From a virus, in the IMG/VR virus record IMGVR_UViG_3300026089_000019, positions 1 through 29,771 of that record: 29,771 nt of DNA. One strand, 5' to 3'. This document shows, one piece after another, positions 2,906 through 29,236 of the stretch. Both the position numbers and the translations under genes were made by a program. Positions within the stretch are counted from its first letter, which is position 1. Each line of letters begins with the position of its first letter. Under the pieces are notes generated by a model. The model did no database searches and had not been told where the DNA came from. It saw nothing but the letters and a program-made list of their open reading frames with translations.

Positions 2906-4456
2906 ATGCCTCCCAGCCACAAATACATTCCGCTCCTCCTGCCGCCGGGCATGGCCCGCAACGGCACGCCCTACGACACGCCCGGACGGTGGTGGGATGC
3001 CAACCTGATGCGTTGGCACGCCGGATCGCTGCGCCCGGTCGGCGGTTGGGAGAAGCTGACGCCCAACCCGTTCGACAGCCCGGCGCGCAAGCTCTTCGCC
3101 TGGCGCTCGCACGAGATCGACCGCTCGATGCTGGTCGGCACCGACTACAAGCTCTATGTCGACCGCTCGGGCACGGCCGACCCGTGGCTCGACATCACGC
3201 CCGTAGGGTTTCTCCCGCCCGTTGCAACCATCACGGGCGGCTACGGCACTGGCCCCTACGGCATGGATTTCTACGGGACACCGCGCGACGCCGCGACCAG
3301 CACCGGCGCCTACTCGAACTTTGCCTACTGGTCGATGGACAACTGGGGCGAAGACGTCCTGATCACGGCCAACACCGACGGTCGTGTCTGGCACTATGTC
3401 CACGACAACGCGACACCGGGACCGCCGGTCGAGATCGTCGCGTCGGCCGGCGAGGTGCCGACGATGATCGCTTCGCTGATCGTCACGGAGCAGCGCCACC
3501 TCATGCTGATCCGCTGCTCGATGGACGGCACCGAGTATCCCTATCGCATTGCCTGGAGTTCTTCGGAGGACTTCACCGACTGGGATTTTACCTCGATCAC
3601 CAACTCGGCGGGCTGGCTCGACCTTCAAGCCACCAGTCCCTTGATGTGCGCCGTCCATGTCCGCGAGGGCATCCTGGTGTTCTCGGCGACCGAGGTGTTT
3701 TTGGTCACATACGTCGCCGGCCCGTACTACTACGGCGCGACCAAGATCGCCGAAATGAAGATGATGAACCCCTATGGGATTGCCCCGTTCATGGGTAATG
3801 CTCTTTGGGCGACCGACCGGGGCTTCCACTACTACACGTCGGGCTACGTCAATCCGATCAACTGCGAGTTCTTCGACGAGATCATCGCCGAGATCGACCC
3901 CGGCTGGGGACCGATGCGCGTCACCGCCGGCGGCAACGGTGTCTTCCAGGAAATCTGGTTCAGCTATCCGACGATCGGCAATTCCGAGAACAACAAGTAC
4001 GTGATTTTCCACGCCGTCGAGGGTTGGTTCGTGTGGGGCTACATGGGCCGCAGCGCGATCCTCGCCGCCGGAACCTGGCCGCAGCCGATCATGGGTGCCG
4101 CCGACAACCATCTTTACCTTCACGAGAAAGGCTGGACGGCGTCGGGCGTTCCCCTGCGCGAGCAGCGTTTCGTCGAGACCGGTGCGCTGGGCATCGCCGA
4201 AGGCACCCAGACCGTCGAGGTCACTTCGGCTCTGATCGGGTCTTCCTCGCCGGGCGCCTTCGACATCAAGTTCTTCTCGCGCTTTGCCCCTAACGGCGCG
4301 GAGCGCACCTTCGGCCCGTACATGGAGCGGCCGGACGGCTACACCGACACGCGCGTATCGGCGCGTGAGGCGCGCGTGCGCCTGGCGATGAAGGTCGATG
4401 CCAACCACGCCTTGGGTCAGACCCGTGTCCTGGTGCGCGCAGCGGGGACGCGATGA
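2906..4456 (+). CDS. Large virion protein, possible tail hub/head-closure (P22 gp10-like)
   Basis: The 516-residue protein starts two bases after the previous stop. Its N-terminus (IPLLLPPGMARNGTPYDTPG, then GRWWDANLMRWHAGSLRPVGGWEKL) describes a conserved opening seen in podovirus-type structural proteins. The rest is beta-rich with many aromatic/Gly-Tyr blades (TGGYGTGPYGMDFYG, YWSMDNWGEDVLITANTDG, WFVWGYMGR), as in beta-propeller-like packaged-DNA-stabilising proteins such as P22 gp10. The size (P22 gp10 is about 470 residues) and the position just ahead of internal virion protein genes agree. No catalytic motif is visible. The gp10-like assignment is inference from layout and composition; a fold-level search would settle it. 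Virion structural role is well supported. Confidence 0.65.
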   Translation: MPPSHKYIPLLLPPGMARNGTPYDTPGRWWDANLMRWHAGSLRPVGGWEKLTPNPFDSPARKLFAWRSHEIDRSMLVGTDYKLYVDRSGTADPWLDITPVGFLPPVATITGGYGTGPYGMDFYGTPRDAATSTGAYSNFAYWSMDNWGEDVLITANTDGRVWHYVHDNATPGPPVEIVASAGEVPTMIASLIVTEQRHLMLIRCSMDGTEYPYRIAWSSSEDFTDWDFTSITNSAGWLDLQATSPLMCAVHVREGILVFSATEVFLVTYVAGPYYYGATKIAEMKMMNPYGIAPFMGNALWATDRGFHYYTSGYVNPINCEFFDEIIAEIDPGWGPMRVTAGGNGVFQEIWFSYPTIGNSENNKYVIFHAVEGWFVWGYMGRSAILAAGTWPQPIMGAADNHLYLHEKGWTASGVPLREQRFVETGALGIAEGTQTVEVTSALIGSSSPGAFDIKFFSRFAPNGAERTFGPYMERPDGYTDTRVSAREARVRLAMKVDANHALGQTRVLVRAAGTR

Positions 4457-4698
4457 GGGTTAATTTCCCCGGCCCGGCACCGGCCAACTACAGCCAGGGC
4501 TTCATCATGCAAGTCCTGTCGCGGCTCACGCTGACGTTCAGCCAGGTGTTGTCGAGCCAACAGGAAGGGCCGTGCGTCGTCCTGTCCTCGCCCGACGGCA
4601 AAATCTGGCGCGTGTCGGTGAGTAATGCTGGGGCATTGGTCGTCGCCCCGGCGACCCCGACCACCCGCGAACACCCGGGCACGGCAGGCTCGATATGA
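4453..4698 (+). CDS. Hypothetical late protein, 81 aa
   Basis: The start overlaps the preceding stop by four bases (ATGA) and the stop overlaps the next start in the same way, so it sits in a coupled chain of late genes. The sequence MRVNFPGPAPANYSQGFIMQ is followed by VVLSSPDGKIWRVSVSNAG, a likely beta-hairpin, and a Thr/Pro-rich tail. The SPDGKxWRVxVxNxG segment is typical of small phage proteins that form a beta-sandwich or accessory virion piece. There are no cysteines arranged for metal binding and no membrane helix. I cannot assign a function. Confidence 0.65.
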   Translation: MRVNFPGPAPANYSQGFIMQVLSRLTLTFSQVLSSQQEGPCVVLSSPDGKIWRVSVSNAGALVVAPATPTTREHPGTAGSI

Positions 4699-5078
4699 GC
4701 AATCGGATAAAGCCACTCGAAGGCCACGAGATCGTCGACAAGATCAAAAAGGCGTTGCGCCTGTCCCAGGACACGCACTCTTGGGAAGACATCCGGCGCG
4801 GCCTGGTCGAGGGCAAATATCAGCTCTTCCAGAACGACGACGGGGTTGTTCTCACCGAGATCGTCCAGGCGCCCAACGTCAAATACCTGAACTGTTTCAT
4901 CATCGCCGGAAGACTGCCCGGTGTCCTGAAGCTGCAGAAGGTCGTCGAGGACCACGGCCGCCAGCACAACTGCAAGTTCATGGTCGGCACCGGCCGCCTG
5001 GGCTGGCGCAAGGTCATGCCTCTGCACGGTTGGACGGAAGAGGCCGTCGTCTTCAGAAAGGACGTTCGCTATGGGTAA
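4695..5078 (+). CDS. Conserved phage protein, possibly GNAT-fold-like, 127 aa
   Basis: The protein begins MSNRIKPLEGHEIVDKIKKAL and contains SWEDIRRGLVEGKYQLFQND, a beta-rich core (GVVLTEIVQ, LNCFIIAGRLPGVLKL) and an end containing GWRKVMPLHGWTEEAVVFRKDV. An alternation of helix, several strands, a long helix (VVEDHGRQHNCKF) and a final strand pair is reminiscent of GNAT acetyltransferase-like phage proteins found next to internal virion genes (T7 gp13 is a comparable case). No intact acetyl-CoA loop (Q/R-x-x-G-x-G/A) is obvious, so catalysis is doubtful. The ends overlap both neighbours. A virion accessory role is inferred from position. Confidence 0.65.
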   Translation: MSNRIKPLEGHEIVDKIKKALRLSQDTHSWEDIRRGLVEGKYQLFQNDDGVVLTEIVQAPNVKYLNCFIIAGRLPGVLKLQKVVEDHGRQHNCKFMVGTGRLGWRKVMPLHGWTEEAVVFRKDVRYG

Positions 5079-6336
5079 GCCATCGAGCGGCGGCGGCACG
5101 CAGCAGACCGTCAATAAGACTGAGCTGCCCGAGTGGGTGAGCCAGGCGGGACAGCGCAACCTCAACCAGTCCTACGACGTCAGCCAGAACCTGATGGGGC
5201 CTTACACCGGGCAGCGCGTCGCCGACCTTGTGCCAGGACAGATGGCGGCGATTGCCGGCATGAACCGGCTGCCTGGGTCGACCACAGCGGCCTTCAACCT
5301 GGCGCAGGACCAGGCGGCCAACGTCGGCAATTTCCAGGCGGGCCAGGTCACGCCGACCATGCTGAACGGGCTCGACCTTTCGGGCTACATGAACCCCTTC
5401 ACGAACAGCGTCATTGGAACGGGCCTAGCTGGTCTCGATGTGCAACGCCAGCAAGCCCTGCGCCAGATCGGCGACCAGGCGCTCGCTTCGCGCGCCTTCG
5501 GCGGCTCGCGACAGGGCATCCAGGAAGGCGTCACCAATACCGGAGCCGTGACAGCCGCCGGTAACCTGGCCTCCCAGCTGGCCTACCAGAACTTCAACCA
5601 GGCCCAGCAGGCGGCCACCGGCGACATCTCGCGCGACCTCGCGGCGCAGCAGTTCAACGAGCAGGCCCGCCAGCAGGCGGCGCAGACCCAGCTGGCCGGG
5701 GCCAACGCCCTGGGTGGGCTGGCCAGCCAGGGACAGCAGACACAGCTGCAGGCCCTGATGGCCATGCTGCAGGGCAATCAGCTCGTCCAGGGACAGAACC
5801 AGGCGATGCTCGACGCGGCGCGCCAGCAGTACGCGGAACAGCAGAACTTCCCGATCCAGCAGCTGCAGATCCCGCTGCAGGCCTTGGGCATGACGCCCTA
5901 CGGCCAGACCCAGACCCAGACCTCGCCGACACCGCCCGGCAACGCGACGATGTCCGGCATGGGCATGGCCTCGGCCGGGCTGGGCATCCTGGGCGCGCTG
6001 ATGGCGATCCCGACCGGCGGCACCTCGCTGATGGCGGCGCTGCCGGCGTTGGCCAGCGCGGGAGCGGCGGCAACGGGCGCGGCGTCGCGCTCCGATCGCC
6101 GGCTCAAGACCGACATCGAGCCGGCCGGACACGATCCCAACCTCGACCTGCCGCTCTACGCCTACCGCTACAAGCGCGACCCCAAGACCTACCCGAAGGT
6201 CGTCGGCGTGATGGCCCAGGACGTCGAGAAGAAATATCCCGAGGCGGTCGGCCAGACGCCGGACGGCTTCAAGACGGTCAACCTCGACTTCCTCGGCAAC
6301 GTCGCCAACCTCAACGCCCTCTACGCGCGGAGTTAG
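5071..6336 (+). CDS. Internal virion protein with C-terminal S74 intramolecular chaperone domain
   Basis: The 421-residue protein has a Gln/Ala-rich helical body (residues about 20-270, full of QQ and AA pairs), a Gly/Ala hydrophobic segment (about 295-335) and a C-terminal domain starting SDRRLKTDIEP. That motif is the catalytic Ser-Lys pair of S74 self-cleaving chaperone domains (S341 and K346 here), followed by the expected YAYRYK and GVMAQDVEKKYPEAV. Such domains help trimerise a partner domain and then cut themselves off just before the Ser. Cleavage would leave about 340 residues in the virion. A good ribosome binding site (AAAGGA) precedes the ATG at 5071. The internal or ejection-protein role is inferred from composition and neighbours; the S74 call is strong. 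Confidence 0.8.
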   Translation: MGKPSSGGGTQQTVNKTELPEWVSQAGQRNLNQSYDVSQNLMGPYTGQRVADLVPGQMAAIAGMNRLPGSTTAAFNLAQDQAANVGNFQAGQVTPTMLNGLDLSGYMNPFTNSVIGTGLAGLDVQRQQALRQIGDQALASRAFGGSRQGIQEGVTNTGAVTAAGNLASQLAYQNFNQAQQAATGDISRDLAAQQFNEQARQQAAQTQLAGANALGGLASQGQQTQLQALMAMLQGNQLVQGQNQAMLDAARQQYAEQQNFPIQQLQIPLQALGMTPYGQTQTQTSPTPPGNATMSGMGMASAGLGILGALMAIPTGGTSLMAALPALASAGAAATGAASRSDRRLKTDIEPAGHDPNLDLPLYAYRYKRDPKTYPKVVGVMAQDVEKKYPEAVGQTPDGFKTVNLDFLGNVANLNALYARS

Positions 6337-6339: not shown

Positions 6340-7191
6340 ATGGCCGACAGACCGGACTTCAAGGCATACGCCGAGTACCTGCGGGGCAAGGGCCTCCAGC
6401 CGCACGTCATTCAGGCGATGCTCGACCACATGAACCGCGAGAGCGGCGGTCGACCCACCCTGTCGCACGACAAGGGCACCGGCTTCGGTCTCTACGGGTT
6501 CCGTGACCCGACGCCGGGACAGGGTCGATGGACTAACCTCAAGAACTTCGCCGGCGATCGTGATCCCAACGACTGGCGGACACAGCTCGACTTTACGCTG
6601 CACGAGATGGGTTTTGGCCAGAAGCCCGAGGGCAGCACGACCTGGGGCTCCGAGAAAGCCGCCGGGGACAGGATCCTGGGCGCCAAGGACTATGGCCAGG
6701 CCAGCGAAGGCATGTACGCCTACCTGCGTCCGCTCAACTGGAACAACGCCCAGCGGCCGGCCACGCCGACCCTGACGGAGCGGCCCAACACGGTCGGATC
6801 GGACGTTGCCAGCTGGCTCGACAGGCTGACCGGTGGCAGCGGCGTCTCGTCGACCGGTGGCAGCGGCGTCTCGTCGACCGATGCCAACGCCCAGCAGAAC
6901 AAGCCCTTCGACTGGGGCGGGCTTCTGAGCAGCGGCATGGAAACCATGGCCAAGGCCAGTCCGGCCAGCATGGGCGGCGGTGGTGGTGATGGCGGCCCGC
7001 CGCCGATGCCCAATTTGCCGGCGCACCGGCCCCAGATGCAGCAGTTCGTGAACCCACTGATGGCGCAGCAGCAGTCTGGCATGGGCATGGGCCTGCTGTC
7101 GCCCGGCATGGGCGGCCAGATGGGTCAGCCAGGACAGCCAGGACAGGACCAGATCAAGAAGCTCCTCGGGCTTCTGTCAGGAGGTGCGTGA
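6340..7191 (+). CDS. Virion-associated lysozyme (phage tail lysozyme domain) with Gly/Gln-rich tail
   Basis: Residues 1-130 match the phage tail-lysozyme type: GLQPHVIQAMLDHMNRESGG contains E34, the likely catalytic acid, followed by GTGFGLYGFRDP, WTNLKNFA and WRTQLDFTLHEM. The enzyme would open a local hole in peptidoglycan so that DNA can cross during injection. The rest (about 150-283) is low complexity: a duplicated GGSGVSST unit, GGGGGDGGPPP, and Met/Gly/Gln-rich stretches ending QDQIKKLLGLLSGG. A ribosome binding site (GGAG) lies 8 bases before the ATG. It follows the S74 protein by three bases. This is probably the infection-stage enzyme, with the 590-1090 gene as the lysis-stage candidate. 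Confidence 0.8.
   Translation: MADRPDFKAYAEYLRGKGLQPHVIQAMLDHMNRESGGRPTLSHDKGTGFGLYGFRDPTPGQGRWTNLKNFAGDRDPNDWRTQLDFTLHEMGFGQKPEGSTTWGSEKAAGDRILGAKDYGQASEGMYAYLRPLNWNNAQRPATPTLTERPNTVGSDVASWLDRLTGGSGVSSTGGSGVSSTDANAQQNKPFDWGGLLSSGMETMAKASPASMGGGGGDGGPPPMPNLPAHRPQMQQFVNPLMAQQQSGMGMGLLSPGMGGQMGQPGQPGQDQIKKLLGLLSGGA
6829..6876. repeat. Perfect 24-bp tandem duplication inside the virion lysozyme gene
   Basis: The 24-base unit beginning ACCGGTGGCAGC is present twice, head to tail and without mismatch, at 6829-6852 and 6853-6876. It adds exactly eight residues (GGSGVSST repeated) in a linker, so the frame is kept. Perfect identity suggests a recent duplication or an array that can change length. 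Confidence 0.95.
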
Positions 7192-10142: not shown

Positions 10143-12431
10143 ATGGCCCAACTCGATCCCTATGCCCTCGACAAAGAGGTCGTGAAGCTCGCCAACTCGG
10201 GACAGCCCGGTGCCAAGGCGGCGATCCTTCAGCTGCTCAAGGCGCACGGCTACGACGAGGACAGCTGGGTAAAAATGAAGGAGCGCATCCGCACGGCCGA
10301 CGACAAGGGCGTGCTCGGCAAGGCCTGGGAGCATCACCTGATCCAGACCGAGCACGGCAATCGGGCGCGCGGTGTCTCGGGACAGGACACTGTCCTGGGA
10401 CGTGTCACCGACCAGCTGCGGGTGTTCAACGACGCCGCGAGCTTTGGCCTGGCCGACCCGATCAAGGCCAACACCATCGGCCTGTTCGACCCCAACATGA
10501 CGACCAAGGGCGAAAGACAACTCACCCAGCAGGCGCGCAACCGGCTGACCCCGTTCGAGCGGGTGGGAACCAACGTCGCCGGTGCCCTGGCCGGGCCGGC
10601 GGTCCAGGCCAGCGGTGGCCTGACGGCCGTCCAGCAGGCGATCGCCCAGGGCAAAGGCTTGGGTAAGCGCGTCCTCGAAGGCATGAAGGAAGGCGCGAAA
10701 TACGGCACCATCGACACGGCGGGACACCAGGTCGGCAACACGGAGCTGTCGTTGCCCCAGCAGGTCGGTCAGAACATCGTCGGCGCCGTCGGTGGTGCTG
10801 TCGGCGGCGGCGCGATCCCGGTCGCCGGCGCCGCCGCAGGCTGGCTCAAGAACAAGATCCCCGGCCTGCGCGACCTCGGCGAGCAGGGCCTCAACAAGGC
10901 CCAGCAAATCGTCTTGAAGGCGCTGCGCGATGATGCCGAGGCACGCGCCAACATGAGAGGTTTGTCGCAACCCGACGCCGCCGGTGCCGTCACCCAGGCC
11001 AGGACACGGGTCGCTGACGCCGGTCCCGAGACGATGCTCGCCGATACCGGCCCAGCCGCTCTGGCCACCACCCAAGGCGCTATCAGCAAGCCCGGCCCCG
11101 GCGCGTCGAGCACCCAGATGACGATCAGCGAGCGCGCCGCCGGCGAAGAAGGCCGGATGCAGGCGCTGGCTCACGACATGCTGCCGCCGACCGGACAGGG
11201 CACGCTCATTCCGTCGCAGGGCAACGTCAAGGTCCAGGGCGAGCCAACACAGTCGGCCGAGAGCATCATCCGCGAACAGCGCAACGCCCTGCAGCCGCGC
11301 TACACCCAGGTGCTCAACGATCCCAACATCCAGCCGATCGACCAGGCCCAGGTCGCCACCATCGTGCAGCGCATCGACAACGAACTGGCGACCCTGCCGG
11401 GGGACAGCCCGCATCGCGCGGCCCTCGAACGGGTTCGCGGAAACCTGGTGGCGCAGCCGGCCAATCCCGGTTCGCCGGCAGTCCCCGGCAACGCTTACAC
11501 CTTACCGACGCCGGCCGTGCCGGCGACGCCCGAGGTCTACGTCACCGATCCCAACATCCTGCACAACCTCAAGGGCGAGCTGCAGGGCCGGGTCAACTGG
11601 GAGGGCGGCGCGACGACGGGTTCGGCGCGCAAGGTCGAGGGCGCGAACAAAGTGGTCAGCGGTGCGATCGACGACGTGCTGGACACCGCTGTCCCAGGAT
11701 ATTCCCAGATCAACCAGCAATACCGCGATCTCACGACCAGGATCGACGACATCGGCACCGGCCAGCGTGTCCTGGACAGGGGCACCACCACCCAGGAAGT
11801 CACCAATGCCATGGACCGCAGCCAGGGCAGCGTCATGTCGGGGGCCATGGAGGCGATCAACAATCTGCTGAACAACTCCAAGGGTAATACCTTCACCCAG
11901 CTGCGCGGCATGTTCAACGACCGCGCGCCGGGGCTGGCCGACAAGATGCGGATGATCATGGGCGACGACGCCTACGCTCGGTTCATGGCCGAGCTGCGCA
12001 ACGAGCAGGCGCGCAAGAACACGGCGCAGGCCGTCGCCGGCAACCCGCCGACAGCGCAACGCATCGGTGCCAAGGAAGCCATGGACGAGGTCGCCAATGT
12101 CCCGGCGCGGGCGAGTGCCGAAAGCTGGGTAGCTCAGATCATGGCAATGGGTGTAAAGGCGATCGACGCTTTCCGCAGCCAGCAGGTGCGCGACGAGGTC
12201 GCCCGCCTGACAGGACTGCAAGGCGAGGCTTTAGACCGCGCTCTGGGCGACATTATCGCCGGTGTTTCTGTCCAGCAGCAGAAAGCCGCCGGCGACGCTG
12301 GACGTTCCGGGGCAACGGGCGCGCTGACCACCCAGGGCCTTCTCGGGACACCAGGGATCAGCGGCATTCCAGAGCAGGTCCAGGGACTGACGATCGACAT
12401 GAGGAAAGAGCCGCAGCCGGCGACGCCCTAG
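10143..12431 (+). CDS. Large probable internal virion/DNA-ejection protein, 762 aa
   Basis: The gene starts after GAGGGACAG, seven bases beyond the previous stop, and is the last late gene. The N-terminal 40 residues (MAQLDPYALDKEVVKLANSG) are helical. Residues about 140-235 are Gly/Ala-rich and weakly hydrophobic (VGTNVAGALAGPAV; IVGAVGGAVGGGAIPVAGAAAG), which could insert into or cross a membrane during DNA entry. The rest is mainly helical and Gln-rich, with INQQYRDLTTRIDDI and FTQLRGMFNDRAPGLADKMR. Proteins like this are found at the end of tail operons in alphaproteobacterial prophages. I see no protease or lysozyme residues. The stop overlaps the tail-to-tail stop of the facing gene by four bases, so no terminator separates the two operons. 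Confidence 0.7.
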   Translation: MAQLDPYALDKEVVKLANSGQPGAKAAILQLLKAHGYDEDSWVKMKERIRTADDKGVLGKAWEHHLIQTEHGNRARGVSGQDTVLGRVTDQLRVFNDAASFGLADPIKANTIGLFDPNMTTKGERQLTQQARNRLTPFERVGTNVAGALAGPAVQASGGLTAVQQAIAQGKGLGKRVLEGMKEGAKYGTIDTAGHQVGNTELSLPQQVGQNIVGAVGGAVGGGAIPVAGAAAGWLKNKIPGLRDLGEQGLNKAQQIVLKALRDDAEARANMRGLSQPDAAGAVTQARTRVADAGPETMLADTGPAALATTQGAISKPGPGASSTQMTISERAAGEEGRMQALAHDMLPPTGQGTLIPSQGNVKVQGEPTQSAESIIREQRNALQPRYTQVLNDPNIQPIDQAQVATIVQRIDNELATLPGDSPHRAALERVRGNLVAQPANPGSPAVPGNAYTLPTPAVPATPEVYVTDPNILHNLKGELQGRVNWEGGATTGSARKVEGANKVVSGAIDDVLDTAVPGYSQINQQYRDLTTRIDDIGTGQRVLDRGTTTQEVTNAMDRSQGSVMSGAMEAINNLLNNSKGNTFTQLRGMFNDRAPGLADKMRMIMGDDAYARFMAELRNEQARKNTAQAVAGNPPTAQRIGAKEAMDEVANVPARASAESWVAQIMAMGVKAIDAFRSQQVRDEVARLTGLQGEALDRALGDIIAGVSVQQQKAAGDAGRSGATGALTTQGLLGTPGISGIPEQVQGLTIDMRKEPQPATP

Positions 12432-13866: not shown

Positions 13867-15816
13867 TCAAGCCTTGTGATAGCGCGGACCATGCCAGCCC
13901 TCAGCCCACACCGGCAGTCCCGGTGCCCAGCCGGGCGGTGTCCGCATGACGTCCAGCATGTTGTCCAAGGTCTCGCCGGAATACTCACGATCAGCCTCGG
14001 CAATCAGCTCATCGTGGACCGACAGGATCAGGTCGACATAACCATCAAGTTCAAGCATGTCCTCGGCCATGACGTCGCGCGCGGCGGCCTGGGTGACGTC
14101 GGCGGCGAGCTTGGAGCCCCAAACCCGAATAGGCCCCCACTGGTTGGTGTAACGGTCGACACCGTCGTAGACCATCTGGTCCTCGCCGGTTTCGTCGTCG
14201 GTGATCCAGCGGGCATTGCGATAAATCAACCAGCGGCCCGACGGCAAGACGATGGCGATCCCGCCGGTGGTCCTCAAGATCTTCAGCCACTTGTTGATGT
14301 CGAAGTGGCTGCCCGCTGGCTGGCTGATGGCGATCCTGAAGGCACGCTCCAAGTCGGCCCACAGGCCGACGATCTTCGGGTTGTCGCGGCGCCACGAATA
14401 GATGAGCTGTTGCGCGACCGCTGGCGCCAGGTCGACACCGTAACCCCTGGCGATGGCGATGATCTTGGCGACGCCGGTGCCGTAGCCGGCGCCCAGCCGG
14501 AAGGTCTTGCCCAGTTGCCGGTTGGGCGAGCCCATCTTGCGAGCGTCATAGGAGTAGATGTCCTGTCCTGACCGGAAGACCGCCAGGACATCGTCCTGTC
14601 CTGCCAGCCAGGCCAGCATCCGGGCTTCGATCTGGGAGAGATCCGCGACCACCAGGTTCTTGCCTGGCGCCGCCACGAAGCAACCGCGCAGGCAGCTGGA
14701 GACCACATCCAAGGTTCTGCCATGCCACTTGTTGAGAAAGTCGACCGGCATGTCGTCAAGAATATCCTGACACGCCGTCAGCGGATCCTTGAGCACGCCC
14801 CTCGGCAGGTTCTGAAGCTGGACTTTGGCCCCGCCGGTGCCCGACCACCGGCCGGTGCGGGTCCCGTAGTAGCGCAGCGAACCGCGCAGCCGGCAGTCGG
14901 GCTCCAGGGCGTCCAGCATGGCGTTGAGCTTGGCGGTGGAGGTCTTGGCGCCGTCCCGGCGCAGTGCCAGGGCCTGCTCGGCAACGTCGCCGTAGGGGTC
15001 GGCCAGGGGCTCGATGGTGTCTTTCTTGAGGTCGGTCAGCCCCGGCATCCCGTTGTTCTGAACGAACTCCAGGAGCTTGGCCTGTTGATTGACGCCCGTA
15101 ACGGTGCCGCCGGTCAACCCCGCCAGTTCACGGTCGATGTCGAGCTTGGCGGCGGTGGCGATCGAGCGCATGGCCACCGCGAAGCGTTTGTCCACGGTGA
15201 TGCCCCGGCGGTTCATGTCCTGGTCGATCAGCCAGAGCGCGCGTTCCCGAGGCGGCAGGTCAGACGTGTGCTTGTGGATGGCGCGCTCGGCCTCGACGTC
15301 CTGCACGCAGTAGTCGGCCAGCATCCGAAGCTTGATCAGGTCGGTGTCGTGCCACCAGACAGGCCTGTTGCTGGCGTCGTAGCTCCGGGGCCGCGCCATC
15401 TGCAGCATGAGCTGCCGCGCGTTAGCCAGCTTCTGAAGATTGAGCGGAAGTCCAAGGGCGTTTCCGGCCAATTCCAGTTTGGCCGGAAGGCCCCAGTAGT
15501 TCGCCCGCGCCATCGTGCAGTGCCACTGATGCGGCTCGATCTTGGGCCAGCCGTAGCGTTTGACGAGGATGTTGTCCCAGATGTCGCGCTCGAAACGCGA
15601 GTTCCAGGCGTGGATCTCGACATTCTCGTAAGCCAGGATCTCGGTATTGGGCACGTCGTAGTTCTCACCAGGGATCCAGAGCTTCACCGGGCCATCGTCG
15701 ACCGCCCAAGCCAGACAGGTCACGTCGGTCGAGGGATCGCGCGAGTAGGCCGACGAGCCGATCTTGCGAAGGTCGGCCTCGCTGTGGGTTTCGAAGTCCA
15801 GGTGCAGGCGGGTCAT
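13867..15816 (-). CDS. polA: Family A DNA polymerase with 3'-5' exonuclease domain
   Basis: This 649-residue protein replicates phage DNA. Residues 1-180 form the proofreading exonuclease: LDFET (D7, E9), HAWNSRFERDIWD (N72, D78) and YCVQD (Y169, D173) are the three exo motifs. The polymerase part shows GTRTGRWSG (318-326), motif A ADLSQIEAR (D392), motif B NRQLGKTFRLGAGYG (R433, K437, Y445) and motif C VHDE (600-603; D602 is the metal ligand). Motif A reads DLSQIEAR where many enzymes have DYSQIELR. There is no 5' nuclease domain, and at about 650 residues it is shorter than E. coli Pol I, as usual for phage enzymes. The gene lies between small ORFs of unknown function in the replication block. 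Confidence 0.95.
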   Translation of the reverse strand: MTRLHLDFETHSEADLRKIGSSAYSRDPSTDVTCLAWAVDDGPVKLWIPGENYDVPNTEILAYENVEIHAWNSRFERDIWDNILVKRYGWPKIEPHQWHCTMARANYWGLPAKLELAGNALGLPLNLQKLANARQLMLQMARPRSYDASNRPVWWHDTDLIKLRMLADYCVQDVEAERAIHKHTSDLPPRERALWLIDQDMNRRGITVDKRFAVAMRSIATAAKLDIDRELAGLTGGTVTGVNQQAKLLEFVQNNGMPGLTDLKKDTIEPLADPYGDVAEQALALRRDGAKTSTAKLNAMLDALEPDCRLRGSLRYYGTRTGRWSGTGGAKVQLQNLPRGVLKDPLTACQDILDDMPVDFLNKWHGRTLDVVSSCLRGCFVAAPGKNLVVADLSQIEARMLAWLAGQDDVLAVFRSGQDIYSYDARKMGSPNRQLGKTFRLGAGYGTGVAKIIAIARGYGVDLAPAVAQQLIYSWRRDNPKIVGLWADLERAFRIAISQPAGSHFDINKWLKILRTTGGIAIVLPSGRWLIYRNARWITDDETGEDQMVYDGVDRYTNQWGPIRVWGSKLAADVTQAAARDVMAEDMLELDGYVDLILSVHDELIAEADREYSGETLDNMLDVMRTPPGWAPGLPVWAEGWHGPRYHKA

Positions 15817-16905: not shown

Positions 16906-16967
16906 GACGTCCTCTCTTTCAGCTGGTAAGATGATGACAATTGGTAGATGCGTAGGACGACCCATAC

Positions 16968-18964: not shown

Positions 18965-19293
18965 CGCTGGATCTCCCGTTGTTGTTGTTGATAGGCAAAC
19001 TCTTCAAAGTCGCGTTTGAACTTCAGGGCGGCCCTGCGAGCGGTCCAGCCCTCGATCCGAAAGCTTTCCCAGGCCCGAGAAATATCCAGGACATCGTAGT
19101 TGTAGGGCGCCTGTCCCAGGACACGACGGATCTCCACCGGCAGCGCATCGAAAATCGCCAGTCTTTCTGACGCACTCAGCCCGTCCTCACCCTTCGCTCG
19201 GGTCTTCGCCGTTGGGGGGTGGCGGGGCGGGTTGAACACGAGAGATCTGAATGCGGATCGGGTCATGGTAGATCGTGACATCGTGCGCCCCAT
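18961..19293 (-). CDS. Hypothetical basic protein overlapping the preceding gene, 110 aa
   Basis: The part after about residue 40 is convincing: SASERLAIFDALPVEIRRVL, GQAPYNYDVLDISRAWESFR, IEGWTARRAALKFKRDFEEF, ending in a Gln-rich tail. The ATG at 19293 has GGGAG six bases upstream, but it lies inside the end of the gene at 19187-19384, so the two overlap by 107 bases in different frames. A later GTG near residue 53 would remove the overlap but cut off part of the ordered domain. The C-terminal W-T-A-R-R-A-A-x-K-F helix looks like a DNA- or RNA-binding helix. No family recognised. Confidence 0.55.
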   Translation of the reverse strand: MGRTMSRSTMTRSAFRSLVFNPPRHPPTAKTRAKGEDGLSASERLAIFDALPVEIRRVLGQAPYNYDVLDISRAWESFRIEGWTARRAALKFKRDFEEFAYQQQQREIQR

Positions 19294-19384
19294 ACTTGTC
19301 TCCCAGGCCAGCGAGGATGCCCACGGCGTAGTTGAACAGTTCCAGTTCCTGGTCGGTCATGTGCGTCACGTCGTCCGGTTTCAC
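19187..19384 (-). CDS. Hypothetical protein, 65 aa
   Basis: A GTG at 19384 overlaps the helicase stop in a GTGA and has AGAGGA seven bases upstream, so it is preferred to the ATG at 19360. The protein contains MTDQELELFNYAVGILAGLG and DKYGAHDVTIYHDPIRIQIS, then a Pro-rich tail (PAPPPPNGEDPSEG). The helix followed by two strands could be a small interaction domain. The 3' third also encodes the start of the next gene in another frame. No function assigned. Confidence 0.55.
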   Translation of the reverse strand: MKPDDVTHMTDQELELFNYAVGILAGLGDKYGAHDVTIYHDPIRIQISRVQPAPPPPNGEDPSEG

Positions 19385-20694
19385 GCGGCGTCCTCTTTGT
19401 GTGCGAATAGGCCCTGAAGGTCGCGGGTCTTGCGGGCCATGACCCCCGCTATCACCTCGTCGAGGGTTCCCGGCGCGTACATCATGCGGGCCAGGACGGC
19501 GTTCTTCTGGCCAATACGATGGGTGCGCTGGATCGCCTGGGCGATGTTGGCCGGCGTCCAGTCGGGTTCCAGGACCATGACGTCATGGCTAGCCGTGAGG
19601 GTCAGACCCGTTCCGGCCGCCAGGGTCTGTCCTATGAAGACACGGATGCCGTTGTCGTTCTGGAACAGGTGGACGGCGGCCTGGCGTAGCCTGGTGGGAG
19701 TACCTCCGGTGACGTTCACCGCCTGGCCGGTCAGGCGCTGCTGAAGCTGGTCGATGACGCCCAGGTGATGGGCGAAGACCACCAGCTTGCGGTCGCTCGA
19801 CGCCAGGAACTCCTCGATCCACTCGATGGCGGCCTTGACCTTGGCCCCTCCTAGAAGGCGTCTGGCCCCCGCCAGGTGGGTCGCCCGGTCGTTCAGCCAC
19901 TTGACCAGTTCGTCGTCGCTCATCACCCCAGCCAGGGCCGGGTCTCTGAAATCGGCCGGGATGGTCGACATGTCGACGTCGAGCGGCTCTTCCACGACCA
20001 TCAGCGGCGGCAGGTCGGGCAGGACTTGCTCCTTGAGCAACCTTCGGAAGAACGTCTTCGTCCTTTCGCGCAACTGATCGGTGTTCTTGGAGCCGACAAC
20101 ACGAAATCCGTAGTTGGAGGCTCGTTGGTGTGAGTAAAGCTCGCGGAACTGATGCTCGGCGAGCGGCGTGGTGGTGGTCGACCGCCAGATGGTCGCCGGC
20201 GCCAGGGCGTTGAGGTGGGTCCAGAGTTCACTCGTGAAGTTGGGCGCCGGTGTCCCGGACAGCGCCAGCACCATCGGGACACCGTGGATCAGGCTGGCCG
20301 GACCGCCGTCGATCGCCGGCCCGTAGACGACCTGGGTCCGCTTGGCTTTGCGTTCTTTGGCGTAGTGCGCCTCGTCGAGCACGATCATGTCGGGTCGCCA
20401 CCGCCGGACGTACTCCTGGTAGCTGGCGGGGTTCCGCACGATCTCGTTCCACGACCAGAACACCAGCTTGCCGGTGCCCTTCCACTTCGACCACTCGTAG
20501 GGCCAGATCACGCGGCCGATCGCGGGGCCGATCACCAGGATCCTGGTAAACCGCCGACGGTTGGCGACTTCGATGCAGAGCCTGGTCTTGCCCAAACCCA
20601 TAGACCACGCCACAAACAATCGAGCTGGCAACGGCATGCCAACCAGCTCGGCGACTTGGTTCTCCTGATAAGGGAACAGCGGTTCAGCAGACAT
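19381..20694 (-). CDS. SNF2-family superfamily 2 helicase/translocase
   Basis: The 437-residue protein is an ATP-driven DNA translocase. Near the N-terminus is a Q-motif-like LFPYQENQV, then Walker A WSMGLGKTRLC (GLGKT at 33-37), the DEAH box VLDEAHYAKERK (107-110) and SGTPAPN (146-152). The second half carries LVVFAHHLGVIDQL, FIGQTLAAGTGLTLTASHDV and motif VI QAIQRTHRIGQKN (about 386-398), the hallmark of SNF2 proteins. The compact size, without accessory domains, is usual for phage SNF2-like helicases that remodel forks or aid recombination. It lies between the HNH gene and small coupled genes. The ATG overlaps the HNH stop by 11 bases. Confidence 0.9.
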   Translation of the reverse strand: MSAEPLFPYQENQVAELVGMPLPARLFVAWSMGLGKTRLCIEVANRRRFTRILVIGPAIGRVIWPYEWSKWKGTGKLVFWSWNEIVRNPASYQEYVRRWRPDMIVLDEAHYAKERKAKRTQVVYGPAIDGGPASLIHGVPMVLALSGTPAPNFTSELWTHLNALAPATIWRSTTTTPLAEHQFRELYSHQRASNYGFRVVGSKNTDQLRERTKTFFRRLLKEQVLPDLPPLMVVEEPLDVDMSTIPADFRDPALAGVMSDDELVKWLNDRATHLAGARRLLGGAKVKAAIEWIEEFLASSDRKLVVFAHHLGVIDQLQQRLTGQAVNVTGGTPTRLRQAAVHLFQNDNGIRVFIGQTLAAGTGLTLTASHDVMVLEPDWTPANIAQAIQRTHRIGQKNAVLARMMYAPGTLDEVIAGVMARKTRDLQGLFAHKEDAA

Positions 20695-21046
20695 GCTTTT
20701 TAATCCCTTTCCTCTGCCCCGCGATGTTGCGCAGCGCCGCCGACCGACCCTTACGTAAGCTATCCAGGGCGTTGTCGCTGTACGTGCCGAGAAAAAGATG
20801 ATCAGGGTTCACGCAACAAGGCAGGTCGCATGTGTGACAGATGATCAAACCATTAGGGATTGGTCCGCGATGGATCTGCCAGGACAGACGATGAGCCTGG
20901 ATCCGCTTAAGTCGCTTACCTCCGCGAACCATGATGCCGCCGTAGCCGTCCTTGTCCCAAGACAGGAAGAACAGCCAACAGCTTGAGTTGGGTTCCGGAA
21001 TATAACCGTCATGGAAGCGGTCAATCGTTGAGCGTCGGGATCTCAT
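20684..21046 (-). CDS. HNH endonuclease
   Basis: The ATG at 21046 overlaps the previous stop (ATGA) and the end overlaps the SNF2 start. The 120-residue protein has RIQAHRLSWQIHRGPIPNGL (H52), then IICHTCDLPCCVNPDHLFLG with C70, H71, C73, C77, N80 and H83, and NALDSLRKGR. This is the zinc-supported HNH_3-type nuclease pattern, in which the final Asn and His with H71 form the active site and the cysteines support the fold. Such genes in phages are often homing endonucleases that sit between other genes, though the tight overlaps on both sides suggest it is settled in the operon. Role may be DNA cleavage in packaging, recombination or homing. Confidence 0.85.
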   Translation of the reverse strand: MRSRRSTIDRFHDGYIPEPNSSCWLFFLSWDKDGYGGIMVRGGKRLKRIQAHRLSWQIHRGPIPNGLIICHTCDLPCCVNPDHLFLGTYSDNALDSLRKGRSAALRNIAGQRKGIKKHVC

Positions 21047-22671: not shown

Positions 22672-22853
22672 GCGACCTTCTCCCGGAGCCGGACGCGAAC
22701 TTCCAGGACAGGCTTGAGCCCGGTCATCGCCTTCGACGTGACGTAGAACTGCGCCGCCCGGGTCAACGCCGCCGGCCAGCTGTCGGCGGTGATGTTCAAG
22801 GCGTCGATCTCCTTGCCCTGAACGTCGATGATCGTGACCCGCCAGTCGCTCAT
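22668..22853 (-). CDS. Hypothetical protein, 61 aa
   Basis: The ATG at 22853 has GGAG six bases upstream and overlaps the preceding stop (ATGA). The protein MSDWRVTIIDVQGKEIDALN continues with ITADSWPAALTRAAQFYVTS and ends GLKPVLEVRVRLREKVA. The strand, Gly turn, helix and strand layout is that of a small alpha/beta domain. The C-terminal basic strand could bind DNA or a partner. No family recognised. Confidence 0.65.
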   Translation of the reverse strand: MSDWRVTIIDVQGKEIDALNITADSWPAALTRAAQFYVTSKAMTGLKPVLEVRVRLREKVA

Positions 22854-23009: not shown

Positions 23010-23483
23010 TTAGCCGCTCTCGCTTCCGACCCAGGCGATCAGGGCGGCGTCCGATCGTCCGTGCTTGCCCTTGGTGAACAGCGTCGTGCTGTCGGGGAAG
23101 AGTTCGCGGGCTCGCTTGATCGAGCCGTCTTTGCCTTTTCGCATCTTGCTGTGGGCCTGCCACTTCTGCGGCGTCAGGTAGGCCACGTTGAACTCCATCG
23201 CCGCCAGGATCCCCTCAAGCTGGCCGACCCCTCGGCCGAACTGGTAGGTGCTGACGACGCCCTGCTGGGGCATCGGCCCGACCAACTCGATGAAGGCGGT
23301 CGAGATGCCTTCGCGATGCGTGGTGAGGAACTGGACGACACCGTCGAGGTCGATCTCGCGCTTGTTGGTCTTGCCCCTCTTCAAAGAGAACGTCGGCATG
23401 TCGAGGATCTCGTGGATGGTGCCCACGCTCGGCTGGTAGAGCGCCAACGCCCCGTCCAGCCCCGGATCTATTCCCAGTATCAA
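23010..23483 (-). CDS. RuvC-like Holliday junction resolvase
   Basis: The start is a TTG at 23483 with GGAGG five bases upstream; no ATG is available in a better place. The 157-residue protein opens ILGIDPGLDGALAL (D6 in the first catalytic strand) and has STAFIELVGPMPQ (E66), the GVVSTYQFGRGVGQLEGIL segment and the late acidic site HGRSDAALIAW (D145). D6, E66 and D145 correspond to the metal-binding acids of RuvC-type nucleases that cut four-way DNA junctions. The length matches compact phage and poxvirus-type enzymes. The gene is the first of the leftward block, divergent from the primase-helicase, so it is read early and would resolve replication or recombination junctions. Confidence 0.85.
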   Translation of the reverse strand: MILGIDPGLDGALALYQPSVGTIHEILDMPTFSLKRGKTNKREIDLDGVVQFLTTHREGISTAFIELVGPMPQQGVVSTYQFGRGVGQLEGILAAMEFNVAYLTPQKWQAHSKMRKGKDGSIKRARELFPDSTTLFTKGKHGRSDAALIAWVGSESG

Positions 23484-23736
23484 GTCGTCCTCCCACCACC
23501 ATTAGTCGTGTCAACGTATAATGTAATCTCCGAGAATAGAGAATACAAGCGAGATCGCTTGACGTAAAACTTTCACAGGAAGAAAATCATGAGACCGGCG
23601 GCAGCGTAGATCCCCTCAGATCGCCACCGCCGGTCCCGATTTCCTCGGCCACCGGGGGAGTTGGGGCCAAGAAAGTAGGCGATGCGCGGTCCCACACCGC
23701 CAGCGCCGTGACGAGACAACCTTGGAGGAGGTGCCC
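23484..23736. promoter_or_regulatory. Divergent control region between resolvase and primase-helicase
   Basis: The two flanking genes point away from each other, so this 253-base region must start transcription in both directions. Leftward, TTGTAT about 17 bases from TACATT (around 23522-23550) is a candidate promoter for the resolvase. Rightward, a perfect TATAAT at 23517-23522 lacks a -35 box. The rightward leader contains a 9-bp inverted repeat (23593-23601 with 23627-23635) that could form a hairpin. None of the promoters is proved. Confidence 0.5.
23559..23587 (+). promoter_or_regulatory. Candidate rightward promoter for primase-helicase
   Basis: TTGACG at 23559-23564 is followed after 17 bases by GAAAAT at 23582-23587, a fair sigma-70-like arrangement on the plus strand. 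It would start transcription just before the 23593-23635 inverted repeat and about 140 bases before the gene. It is a consensus match only. Confidence 0.4.
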
Positions 23737-25824
23737 GTGGATGGGACCGTAACTTCTCATTCTCCGACTGACAAGGCCCTTGCGCTAGTCGCGCGCGGCT
23801 TTCACGTATTTCCGTGCAACGACGACAAGTCACCGGCCTGCCCGCATGGGCATCTCGATGCTTCCTGTGACCCGCTGCGCGTCAAGATGCTGTTCGCCGG
23901 CGCTCCCAACGCAACGCTCGTAGGGATCTCGTGCCCGGCCTCGCACATCCACGTGCTGGACATCGACCCGCAGGGCCTGCCGTTCTACGAGCAGCACAAG
24001 CATCTTGTGCCGGACACGGTGAAGATCACGACACGGCGAGGCGGCTTGCACCTGCAGTACCGCGCCGACGATCCGCAGCTGGTGGTCAAGAACGGCGCCG
24101 GCGGCGGCATCGACGTGCGTTCGGGCAACGCCAAGGGCGGCTATGTCATCGCCTGGGGCGAAGCCTATCAGTACGACCTCAACCGGATGTCCCCTGAATG
24201 GCCCGAGGCGTTTGTCAGCCTGGCACGGGCGCAGCCCAAGACCAACGGCCACACGACCTGGCTACCGCTTCCAACGATGCCATCACACTCGCCAGCTACC
24301 ATTGCTGACGAGATCCGTGCGGTGGCTGTCCTGGGACATGTCCCGATCGGCGAGCGCGACCACTTTCTGATGAGGGCTTATGGGCACGCCCAGAAAGCCC
24401 GTCGCGAGGGCATGGCGACGCTTGAGCAGGTCGGTGCGTTCATCGGCCGGATCTCGTCGGCCAAGATGATGTCGGGCGATTTGATACACGATTTCGAGGG
24501 CAAGCTTCGCCGGGCCAAGTTCACACCGCAGGAAGTCGCTTTTCTGCTGCCCTACGAGAACAATGACGACGGGGAGCCGATTGTGCCGTTCCCCAAGGGC
24601 GGCGAGTTTCCGGTCGATCCGTTCGAGGGGTACGAAAGCATACCCGGAGGTCAAACGGGATTTGGAACCGGGATCTTCGAGACCTCCCTGGACAGCCACC
24701 CGCTTGCCGAGATCGTGCCCTATTCGAGCACGGTCAGGATCCCCGAATACGTCATCCCAAACTTCATCGGCGCCGGCCTGGTGACGATCGCCGGGGGTCA
24801 TGGCAAGGGCAAGACGACGGCGCTGGTGGCGTTGGCGTTGATCGTGGCGGGGCTGGGTGCCGCTGGACACGAGCTGGCCCAGAAGCCGGGACGCTGGCGG
24901 CATGTCGTCTACATCACGGAGGACGACGGGCAGGTCCAGCGCATCCTCAATGCCCACGAGATGGCCGACAAGCTGTCGGCGCAGGACATCAATGATCGGT
25001 TCCATATCGTCCTGGCCAAGCGGCTGGACGCCAAGCAGTTCGTTCGCATCGGCAAATGGTACCAGGAGCAATACGCTCGCGAGGCGGATGGCGCGGTGCT
25101 GAAGCCCCTGGTGATCGTCGACACCAAGTCGGCTTCGTTCGAGGTCGAGGACGAAAACTCGAATGCCGAAGCGTCCAAGATTGCGGCCTGCCTAAAGCAG
25201 GATTTCGAGCGACTGCCGACCTTCCTGGTGGGACATATCTCGAAAGAGGACATGACGCGCCAGCAGGCCCGGTCGATGCGGGGAGCGACGGCGATCGAGG
25301 CTGATGCTGTCCAGAACCTGTACTTCGCCCAGGAAGAGGATGGGTCACGGTACATCGTGCGGGGCAAGACCCGGTTTGAGGCGTCGGTCGAGGCGGTCCT
25401 GGTCGAGAGCGAAGTGACCATGGTGCAGGGGACGGACATGTTCAGCGACACGGACAGCGTGCCGCTACGGTGGGCGCGGGTTCGGTCGTCCGCCCGTGTG
25501 CCTGGACAGGTGCGGGCCGGAAAGGGCGACCTGAAGTCTGCCCTTCAGGTGCTGGAAGACCTGATCACGAGCAACACACCCCCGGCGGCGGCCCCCGGTG
25601 CCCAGAACAATCGGTTCAGCGACATCCTGATGCAGAAGCTGCAATGGCCAGAAGCCCTGGCCAAGCAGGTGATCAGCCAAGCCAAGGCCAAGGGTCTGAT
25701 CAAGGCGGTTAAGCCGATCAGGGCCAAGGGTGCCACTCATAATCCCTGGGTTTTCGACCTCACTCAGGAGGGTCGGGAATATTTATCGGGAGCGCAGGAC
25801 TTCGATGAAGCCAGTCCTTTTTGA
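23737..25824 (+). CDS. Primase-polymerase/helicase fusion (prim-pol N-terminal, RepA-like ATPase)
   Basis: The 695-residue protein joins an archaeo-eukaryotic-type primase to a RecA-fold helicase. The start is the GTG at 23737, about six bases after GGAGGAGG. In the primase domain, VLDIDPQG (D75, D77) binds metal, followed by RRGGLHLQY (H105), GIDVRSGN (D126) and KGGYVIAWG, as in bifunctional primase-polymerase proteins. From about residue 340 the ATPase follows: VTIAGGHGKGKTT (Walker A, K359), HVVYITEDD, LVIVDTKSASFEVEDENS and RSMRGATAIEADAVQNL, matching the AAA_25/RepA-like helicase fold. It would prime and unwind phage DNA at the origin. It works with the polymerase and SSB at 13867 and 16291. 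A repeat cluster follows immediately. Confidence 0.9.
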   Translation: MDGTVTSHSPTDKALALVARGFHVFPCNDDKSPACPHGHLDASCDPLRVKMLFAGAPNATLVGISCPASHIHVLDIDPQGLPFYEQHKHLVPDTVKITTRRGGLHLQYRADDPQLVVKNGAGGGIDVRSGNAKGGYVIAWGEAYQYDLNRMSPEWPEAFVSLARAQPKTNGHTTWLPLPTMPSHSPATIADEIRAVAVLGHVPIGERDHFLMRAYGHAQKARREGMATLEQVGAFIGRISSAKMMSGDLIHDFEGKLRRAKFTPQEVAFLLPYENNDDGEPIVPFPKGGEFPVDPFEGYESIPGGQTGFGTGIFETSLDSHPLAEIVPYSSTVRIPEYVIPNFIGAGLVTIAGGHGKGKTTALVALALIVAGLGAAGHELAQKPGRWRHVVYITEDDGQVQRILNAHEMADKLSAQDINDRFHIVLAKRLDAKQFVRIGKWYQEQYAREADGAVLKPLVIVDTKSASFEVEDENSNAEASKIAACLKQDFERLPTFLVGHISKEDMTRQQARSMRGATAIEADAVQNLYFAQEEDGSRYIVRGKTRFEASVEAVLVESEVTMVQGTDMFSDTDSVPLRWARVRSSARVPGQVRAGKGDLKSALQVLEDLITSNTPPAAAPGAQNNRFSDILMQKLQWPEALAKQVISQAKAKGLIKAVKPIRAKGATHNPWVFDLTQEGREYLSGAQDFDEASPF

Positions 25825-25833
25825 TTTTTTATG

Positions 25834-26439: not shown

Positions 26440-26655
26440 CGCGAATATTTCGTGCCACGAGGCTAGACCTGGTTCAAACTTGCAGCCGACCGGCCCGGAG
26501 AGGGGGGTCCGCCCTACTATGGCTTTCAGAAAAATTATCCGACCTGGTGTCGCGCGCCAGGCGCGCCCGGATCTTGACGTTGTCTAGATGCCTGGCCCGC
26601 GCATCTTGACGCTGTCCAGGATCCTGTGCCCAGGGTCCTGTCCTGTGTCCTGGCG

Positions 26656-27169: not shown

Positions 27170-27175
27170 GCGTGC

Positions 27176-29236
27176 CTAGCGTGCCACCCAGGCCTTGCGA
27201 AGCTCGTCCAGAAGCGCGCCCAGAACTTCGCTGGAAAGCTTGGATGGATCAGGCACGGCAATGCCGACCTTGAACGCATCGGCCTTTTCTTCGCCGATCT
27301 GCACGCCGATCACTTGGACGCCCTTGGCCCTGGCGTAGTCCTGCGCCAAGTCCATCGCCGGCTGACCCTCGTCGGCATCGCCATCGGTCAGGACCAGCAA
27401 AATCCGTTTGGTCCGGTTGGTCCGCATGGCGAGCTTGTCGATAGCCGCCATCATGCATTGGGCGAGGGGCGTATGGCCCATGCATGCGCCCAGGTTGGCG
27501 ATGGTCGCCAGGGCCTGCGGCAGGGGCTGGTTCCAGTTCTTCACAATGGCGAGCCCGTAGGGGCTGAAAGCCGAAATGTGACAATCCACGTCGGCGTGCT
27601 TGCAGGCTTCGGCCAGGGTCACGGCCAAGGCCTTTTGGCAGGTGTTACGGTCGTGGTTCTGGCCGTGCGCTATGTGCGTCATGGAGCCCGAATTGTCGAG
27701 CAACAGCCCTACGGCGGTATTCACCGCATCGGCACGCGTGCGCTTAGTGAACACGTTTGGCGCGTCCATCGCCATCCTCGGAAATGCGCGGCGGTCCAAG
27801 CGACCGTGCGGGCGATAGTGCTGCCGCATCGCCTGGGCGGGCGCCTTGAGCAACCGCCGCACGTGTTCCCGGACCATGGTCGCGTTGGGAACGAGCGCCT
27901 TCAGCTCGGGCAGGGTCGTGGTCGCGTGAAGGTCGCGCGGCAACAGTTCGTTGTCGGACACGCCGCGCCAATCCCGAATGTTCTCGGGAATGGAGCGTAG
28001 CTTCCGGGCGGTAAGATTGTTGCGTGCCAGGATATTATCGACGAGATTTTTCAAGGCGTCATCGTGGTCGGCGGACTGGGATTGCACCTCACGTTGAGCG
28101 CCGCGCTTGGGCTTGCCCTTGGATGGTGCGCTGGGACCGTCCTGGGGCTCGCCCTGCGTGTCCTGGCCAGCGTCTCCCGTATCGCCCGCGTCCTGGCCGT
28201 CGCTCTCTGACGGCCTTCCCTGGCCGTCCTGGGTGCCGTCCTGGGTGCCGTCCTGGTCTTCGCCCTGGTCTTCGCCCTGGTCTTCGCCCTGGTCTTCGCC
28301 CTGGCCGTCCTGGGGCTCGCCCTGGGGCTCGCCGTCCTGGCCGTCGCCGTCCTGGGTGTCGTCGCCCTGGCCGTCCTGGCCGTCGCCGTCCTGGGCGCTT
28401 CCCTGGCCGTCCTGGGCGCTATCCTGGGGCTTGTCGCCCTGGTCGTCGCCGTCCTGGTCGTCGTCGCCCTGGCTCGTGTCGCCCTGGGGCTCGCCAAGGT
28501 CGACCTTGGGCTGTTGCTCGGCGGCAGCCCTGGCAAGGCGCAGCATGTCCTCTGCGAGCAAGGATACGCTGGCAGTGTCACGGCACGCGCCCAGGCGGGC
28601 GCGCATGAGATCAAGCGCGCCATCAAACTGCCGACCTACCCGGAGCCCTGCCAGCTGGACGTCATGGCCAAGGTGGTGGCGGCCCAAGATTGCGACGGTG
28701 AACGGCAGGGCGCCCAGGCAATCGCACGTCCAGCCGTTCGCCAGGGCTTCCGCCAACAATGCCTGGGCGAGCCCGGACAGGATCACGCGAGCATTCGGGA
28801 TGGTCCCGTCGGAGATCAACTCGGCTTCGATCCGACAATCTTCGAGAGCATTGATCATGCCCGCGAGCAACCGTTCCTTGCCCTGCAGCCCGTTCACGTC
28901 GCTTTTGCGGACGTGCTGCAATTCGTGGATGAGGTAGCCAACGAGACGTTCGGCGTAGGCCCTGGGAACCCGCAGGAACGCGGGCAGGGAAGGCATGGAC
29001 AGGTCGATATACAGCGACGTGTGGGGGTCTGTGAGACGGCCGCGCCACGTCACGCGGGCGGTTGGTCCGCCTTTGGTATCCACGTCAACGTGGATGCGGT
29101 TTGCCGGCTTCCCAGGGAAGGCCTGGGCGGCAAGCTTGGCGAAGGTCACGCGGACCGCCGCGACGACGGTGCCGTAATCCACGACGGGCGCGCCCAGGCC
29201 TAGCAGGCCTGGGGCGTTCTGAAGGGGAGCGTTCAT
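27176..29236 (-). CDS. CobT-like von Willebrand A protein with HELQH motif
   Basis: The ATG at 29236 follows GGAG and lies 16 bases after the AAA+ gene. The 686-residue protein has three parts. Residues 1-245 contain [13 protein letters not shown] (H104, E105, H108), a zinc-metallopeptidase-type HExxH, and [13 protein letters not shown] (129-140), the N-x-L-E-D-x-R-x-E motif of CobT/NorD-type proteins. Residues about 246-370 are an acidic Asp/Gly/Gln/Glu linker. From about 380 a CobT-like C-terminal region leads to a von Willebrand A domain: LLLDNSGSM (D514, S516, S518), GHTP (T589) and LTDGD (D618), the full metal-ion-dependent adhesion site. In CobNST the CobS-CobT pair is an ATP-driven chaperone for metal insertion. 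Here no CobN is seen, so the target is unknown. Confidence 0.85.

Follow-up and report, generated by a model that had tools for sequence, protein, structure and literature searches.

A dispersed, lineage-spelled DNA word in phages with a PolA replication module and a CobS-like gene

Genome-wide words are known for bacteria, among them Chi and uptake words. In mycobacteriophage L5, many copies of a repressor site, the stoperators, are spread over the genome; these sites are longer, number about two dozen, and are mostly intergenic. The localized nick sites of certain podoviruses lie on one strand only, at ~14 per genome (PMC3517423), and for Chi, strand polarity serves as a criterion (PMC8022716). 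No matching description of over-represented octamers or pentanucleotides in phage genomes was found in the literature searched. Here we analyze the octamer CCAGGACA/TGTCCTGG in a phage fragment of 29,771 bases (positions 1 to 29,771 of IMG/VR record IMGVR_UViG_3300026089_000019, hereafter the window) and the corresponding words of its relatives. A preliminary description had counted about 18 copies by eye where base composition predicts about one and had proposed either a dispersed recognition site, for packaging, Chi-like recombination, an architectural protein, or a phage regulator, or a codon-pair bias.

Exact matching finds 20 copies in the window, 11 on the plus strand and 9 on the minus strand (Table 1); all 18 coordinates given earlier are correct, and two copies, both read as TGTCCTGG, had been overlooked. 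As a control, the octamer spelled backwards occurs 3 times. The computed expectation from composition is 1.2, in agreement with the earlier estimate, and Markov models of order 1, 2, and 3 give 1.1, 1.8, and 5.2. Over-representation under several Markov orders, a criterion for Chi, is thus clear at orders 0-3, and at orders 4-5 the models expect 12-15 copies against the 20 observed. Enriched pentamers and hexamers are built into models of these higher orders. Most of the signal is thus held by the shorter words CCAGG, AGGAC, and GGACA rather than by the octamer as one inseparable whole, and the enriched unit is a GGACA core with CCA or CCG preferred 5' of it. The Markov p-value of ~1e-14 is not exceptional, as words in T7 (promoters) and Bordetella phage BPP-1 are equally extreme.

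Synonymous codon shuffling, which preserves all proteins and codon usage and here used simple open reading frame (ORF) picks as gene calls, gives 4.3 copies in the coding DNA of the window (standard deviation 1.7; maximum 8 in 300 shuffles) against 18 observed. Several frames contribute, with TGTCCTGG in frame NNT-GTC-CTG-G seen 10 times against 1.0, CCA-GGA-CA 3 times against 0.1, and GGA-CAG 19 times against 5.0. These frame tests and the strand split bear out the spread over frames and strands that had been described. The writing of Gly-Gln as GGA CAG is part of one DNA-level effect, because other frames are enriched likewise. This codon-shuffle result, together with the fact that related phages repeat exactly this octamer, confirms that the over-representation is real.

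The recurrence is seen in three genomes. In Microcystis phage Mae-Yong1326-1, CCAGGACA is the top over-represented 8-mer, with 51 copies against 1.6-4.4 expected; its coding DNA holds 34 against 9.4±2.2 under codon shuffling, and the density is higher outside the counted genes. Two IMG/VR phages, G014 with 31 copies and G020 with 25, are enriched too, and the backward-spelled octamer is absent from G020. G020 was retrieved solely by a scan for two nearby copies of CCAGGACA, and its gene content includes homologues of PolA, the single-stranded DNA-binding protein (SSB), exonuclease, SNF2, RuvC, CobS, and CobT; it is the strongest single test of the link between word and module. Fifty such word-pair contigs were counted whole; besides G020, none of those at least 15 kb long has more than 10 copies, and two short ones (7.8 kb and 4.6 kb) show a high density. 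The closest relative found, G001 (IMG/VR 3300009094_000472), is largely syntenic with the window, at ~40-70% identity for most shared proteins. It has one CCAGGACA, yet GGACA is enriched two-fold as in the window, with flanks of the GAGGACAT type. The G+C content of Mae-Yong1326-1 is 71.8%, which presumably makes its assignment to Microcystis doubtful. Microcystis is the host on record (PMC9503304).

Other relatives carry different spellings around a GAC core (TGACA, GAGACA, CGGGACC). In the Sinorhizobium (S. meliloti) phage phiM5, TGACA occurs 423 times against 62 expected, at 9.1/kb in genes and 11.6/kb elsewhere, with Poisson spacing and near even strands (231/192). GAGACA is enriched in G016 and G112, GGGACC/CGGGAC in G095-G104, and TGGACA in G115. 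Further words were noted along the way. G016 has a second enriched word, CGAGGGCG (55 against 8.5 expected), alongside GGAGACAC, and in two CobS-bearing genomes without PolA (G107 and G117) AACAGC/ACAGCT is enriched ~3-fold. GGACC is nearly absent from BPP-1 (observed/expected ratio, O/E, 0.02) and from G109 (O/E 0.00), a pattern that avoidance of an AvaII-type site (GGWCC) would give.

The sites are single and non-palindromic, and neither strand, reading frame, nor coding status confines them: both strands, all frames, and coding and non-coding DNA have copies. The strand split of CCAGGACA is 11/9 in the window, 18/13 in G014, 10/15 in G020, and 17/34 in Mae-Yong1326-1. A Chi-like orientation toward the genome ends was rejected, the hint of it being confined to Mae-Yong1326-1, confounded there by gene direction, and absent in phiM5. 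An extended consensus was likewise rejected, the octamer flanks being low in information, as was a paired or palindromic site: the window has four TGTCC-N2-GGACA inverted pairs, but phiM5 shows no preferred spacing. The preliminary description had suggested looking for conserved copies. Within alignable genes, no octamer position is common to the window and G001, and the sharing of GGACA positions is close to the median for 56 control pentamers of like abundance. Word copies turn over fast.

To ask which genes accompany the words, we scored 45 complete or nearly complete phage records, plus three partial loci, under the synonymous-shuffle null. Of 47 records, nearly all of them with a PolA module, a CobS-like AAA+ profile matched 6 (G014, Mae-Yong1326-1, G016, G072, G078, and phiM5, whose AAA+ gene spans 41916-43121); each of these carries a strong word and had already been present in earlier word surveys. 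With the window and G020 added, 8/8 genomes with both PolA and CobS lie above the score cut-off against 6/35 others, at a cut-off picked after the scores were seen. A list of GAC-core pentamers derived from this first set (AGACA, GGACA, TGACA, and GGACC) was then applied at O/E >=1.65 together with a fresh set of contigs retrieved by CobS similarity alone. The threshold is passed by 17/21 genomes with both genes, by 1/34 with PolA and no CobS, where metagenomic contigs may be incomplete and a missing CobS can mean an unsequenced one, and by 0/10 with CobS and no PolA. Neither CobS alone nor the PolA module alone was therefore retained as the determinant. In the fresh set, 10/13 PolA-bearing contigs pass, the misses being G099 (1.23), G098 (1.50), and G101 (1.63), and with close relatives thinned by eye 11/13 genomes with both genes do so. 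The Fisher p-values of ~1e-8 are descriptive only, given the origin of the list and the relatedness of the genomes. The presence of the CobS-like gene thus marks word-bearing genomes. The SNF2 helicase is the sole protein family common to all the word-positive genomes compared, G115 with its barely recognizable PolA among them, and it occurs in word-free phages as well. Besides the replication module, no protein of two reference genomes was found in every word-positive genome.

What was observed is a DNA-level, phage-carried, lineage-spelled dispersed word tied to replication-recombination genes and a CobS-like gene. CGCTGTCA occurs 49 times in the 44 kb of phiM5 and 36 times in the 1.68 Mb S. 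meliloti replicon pSymB, the one true-host replicon compared, where its control also occurs 36 times, so that the word shows no enrichment in this host DNA. A reader would therefore have to be phage-encoded. In five large alphaproteobacterial and actinobacterial replicons, CCAGGACA occurs at 33-74 per Mb, ~9-20x below the 670 per Mb of the window.

We infer from these sequence comparisons that the word is read by a phage protein, and we see an even prospect that CCAGGACA is the local spelling of a dispersed recognition word read by a phage-encoded replication or recombination protein, Chi-like in kind. Phages with PolA, a gp2.5-like SSB, exonuclease, SNF2 helicase, RuvC, and a CobS/CobT-like AAA+/VWA pair would maintain the word at high density. 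The most likely reader would be part of the replication-recombination machinery, working on single sites as AddAB/RecBCD does on Chi, with the SNF2 helicase, exonuclease, and resolvase group as first suspects. The number of sites, rather than their position, would matter, so that copies could turn over quickly and the word could drift with its reader. A Chi-like role would fit the word size, the spelling drift, the lack of fixed positions, and the link to these genes.

Several points weigh against a Chi-like word read by this machinery. Strand polarity of the Chi kind was not seen in the window, G014, G020, Mae-Yong1326-1, or phiM5 TGACA, and the excess of CCAGGACA itself over fourth- and fifth-order Markov models is modest in the window. 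The PolA/CobS module is not sufficient for the word: in G099, PolA and CobS occur without a strong word, and in G011 and L028, PolA and SNF2 occur without any word. G078, with both genes, has the word GGGGTA, which lacks the GAC core, and G017 and G018 carry GAGCCC without CobS (in G017, 134 copies against 33 under codon shuffling). Because the genomes are related, the Fisher p-values overstate independence. Bearers of the identical octamer differ in primase-helicase (Prim-Pol+AAA_25, AAA_25, or DUF5906). The genome comparisons identified no reader protein.

A variant that we hold only tentatively is a self-DNA word system, in which each lineage would stock its genome with a private short word. 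The recombination or replication machinery of that lineage, or else the CobS/CobT-like AAA+/VWA pair, would read this word and so distinguish phage from host DNA. Word and reader would then co-evolve by single-letter changes around the GAC core.

It seems unlikely that the word is a template site of the phage primase or prim-pol, with its density setting the starts of lagging-strand primers. Prim-pols are present in the window and in phiM5, TGTC and GGTC resemble T7 primase sites, and a non-palindromic site 5-8 bases long that occurs on both strands would be compatible with priming. The NrS-1 prim-pol reads an 8-nt site, recognizing TTTGGTTA and GTG (PMC8718748). The identical word nevertheless accompanies the three differing primase-helicase types given above, among which an unrecognized common primase domain is possible, and in T7 the phage's own primase sites reach an enrichment of just 1.4-1.7 fold, with none for GTGTC, against 2-7 fold here.

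We find it similarly hard to favor stoperator-like binding sites for an architectural, segregation, or silencing protein of the phage, which would nucleate at the clusters in the intergenic DNA beside CobS. G014, G020, and G016 do have one-way tandem arrays (TGTCC or TGTCTCC), many spaced 9-11 bp, in intergenic DNA near CobS/CobT, but such arrays may merely reflect unconstrained DNA, and no shared small DNA-binding protein was found among the word-positive genomes compared. The earlier proposal of a dispersed recognition site stands in general form, through pressure at synonymous sites, the presence on both strands and in several frames, the recurrence among relatives, and the lack of enrichment of the phiM5 word in pSymB; its Chi-like, architectural, and regulator versions are not told apart.

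Quite improbable, in our judgment, is a mutational or conversion drive in which phage replication or repair enzymes generate the words without function. The turnover of copies at unconserved positions, the local tandem arrays, and the enrichment of non-coding DNA would all be expected from it. Yet no single-substitution neighbor of the word is depleted as a mutational precursor, and the pressure acts on a contiguous word of 5-8 bases and not on a dinucleotide change. Very doubtful is a host signature, such as a host Chi, an uptake word, or a codon-pair habit, copied by the phage. E. coli phages do over-represent the host Chi, with a median O/E of ~3 (PMC3784561), and in Azospirillum pAB510a CCAGGACA mildly exceeds the backward-spelled control (108 against 37). 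A host scan with PolA across genomes gave nothing beyond one distant locus, in a Dethiobacter bin. The host explanation is weak because the phiM5 word stands at control level in pSymB and the replicon densities are low; G001, a close syntenic relative, has a single CCAGGACA.

A protein motif, already excluded in the preliminary description, is rejected by the several frames and both strands, plain codon-pair bias is insufficient because several frames, and the non-coding DNA of phiM5 and Mae-Yong1326-1 at equal or higher density, show the same pressure, and a single packaging site is mismatched to many copies on both strands.

The structural genes of the window are phiM5-like (a stabilization-type structural protein and DNA ejection proteins), and its PolA is 45% identical to that of Mae-Yong1326-1. 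The intergenic region between prim-pol and CobT (25825-27175) contains one CCAGGACA and other tandem arrays: GACCGGGAAGA three times plus an inverted copy (25833-25914), TGGACG eight times (26391-26439), CGCCTGGTCGTT 5.8 times (26654-26722), and a hairpin (26752-26781). In its sequence, this region resembles a replication origin. G014 (1-1180) and G020 (1540-2300) share short repeats of the AAATGCGAAAACC type next to the DUF5906 primase gene; these are distinct from the octamer and are probable origin iterons. Inside the CobT-like gene, positions 28223-28487 are low-complexity tandem repeats with GCCGTCCTGG units, and the CobT region of G016 has a comparable repeat, CCCTCG.

Table 1. Octamer copies and genes in the window
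Feature	Position	Strand	Remarks
CCAGGACA copy	691..698	-	exact match; within ORF 590-1090; overlooked earlier
CCAGGACA copy	4426..4433	-	within virion structural protein gene 2906-4456
CCAGGACA copy	4766..4773	+	TGTCC-CA-GGACA inverted pair
CCAGGACA copy	5233..5240	+	frame CCA GGA CAG
CCAGGACA copy	7129..7136	+	first member of 9-bp tandem pair
CCAGGACA copy	7138..7145	+	second member of 9-bp tandem pair
CCAGGACA copy	10391..10398	-	
CCAGGACA copy	10999..11006	+	rare codon AGG used
CCAGGACA copy	11768..11775	-	
CCAGGACA copy	14583..14590	+	within PolA gene
CCAGGACA copy	15216..15223	-	within PolA gene; overlooked earlier
CCAGGACA copy	17643..17650	-	within exonuclease gene
CCAGGACA copy	17810..17817	+	TGTCC-CA-GGACA inverted pair
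CCAGGACA copy	19086..19093	+	
CCAGGACA copy	19116..19123	+	TGTCC-CA-GGACA inverted pair
CCAGGACA copy	20879..20886	+	outside assigned genes
CCAGGACA copy	22703..22710	+	
CCAGGACA copy	24327..24334	-	within prim-pol gene; TGTCC-TG-GGACA inverted pair
CCAGGACA copy	26646..26653	-	non-coding; adjoins tandem array
CCAGGACA copy	28159..28166	-	within CobT-like gene
Family A DNA polymerase (PolA)	13867..15816	-	PHROG 17, E 3e-105; defines module
gp2.5-like single-stranded DNA-binding/annealing protein	16291..16965	-	PHROG 112
Exonuclease (annotated relatives: RecB-family or Cas4-like)	16968..18179	-	PHROG 69
SNF2-type DNA-dependent ATPase/helicase	19381..20694	-	Pfam SNF2-rel_dom + Helicase_C; candidate reader
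Holliday junction resolvase (RuvC-like)	23010..23483	-	PHROG 1770
Prim-pol + AAA_25 helicase	23722..25824	+	Pfam PF09250, PF13481; rival candidate reader
CobT-like VWA-domain protein	27176..29332	-	Pfam VWA_2; weak CobT PHROG match
CobS-like AAA+ ATPase	29253..29771	-	PHROG 249, Pfam CbbQ_C; truncated at window edge

Phages thus appear to keep words of their own, up to one per 104 bp, with spellings that shift between relatives. Such a word would be a sequence-only handle on a sequence-reading protein, and the reader could be found by comparing word-bearing with word-free relatives. The association also points to what the CobS/CobT-like pairs, puzzling genes carried by many phages, may do.

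Among known systems, the L5 stoperators are likewise many-copy dispersed sites, although here most copies lie inside genes. T7 primase and NrS-1 prim-pol sites are also short single-stranded template words, and TGTC and GGTC are like those of T7, but T7 sites are hardly enriched in T7, and genomes that share a word differ in primase type. The nick sites of T5-, phiKMV-, and tf/LUZ24-like phages (e.g., TACT/RTGMC) are dispersed, phage-specific consensus words in podoviruses with direct terminal repeats; a one-strand nick site was rejected here, as the word lies on both strands (11 + and 9 -), in 20-51 octamers or hundreds of pentamers. The Chi words of bacteria (GCTGGTGG and others), which RecBCD/AddAB read, resemble the phage word: both are short, non-palindromic, species-specific, and over-represented in coding and non-coding DNA, and in both number would matter over position. 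Chi modulates a helicase-nuclease, and the window encodes an SNF2 helicase and an exonuclease. Unlike Chi, the word is phage-carried, unenriched in the tested host replicon, far denser, and without polarity.

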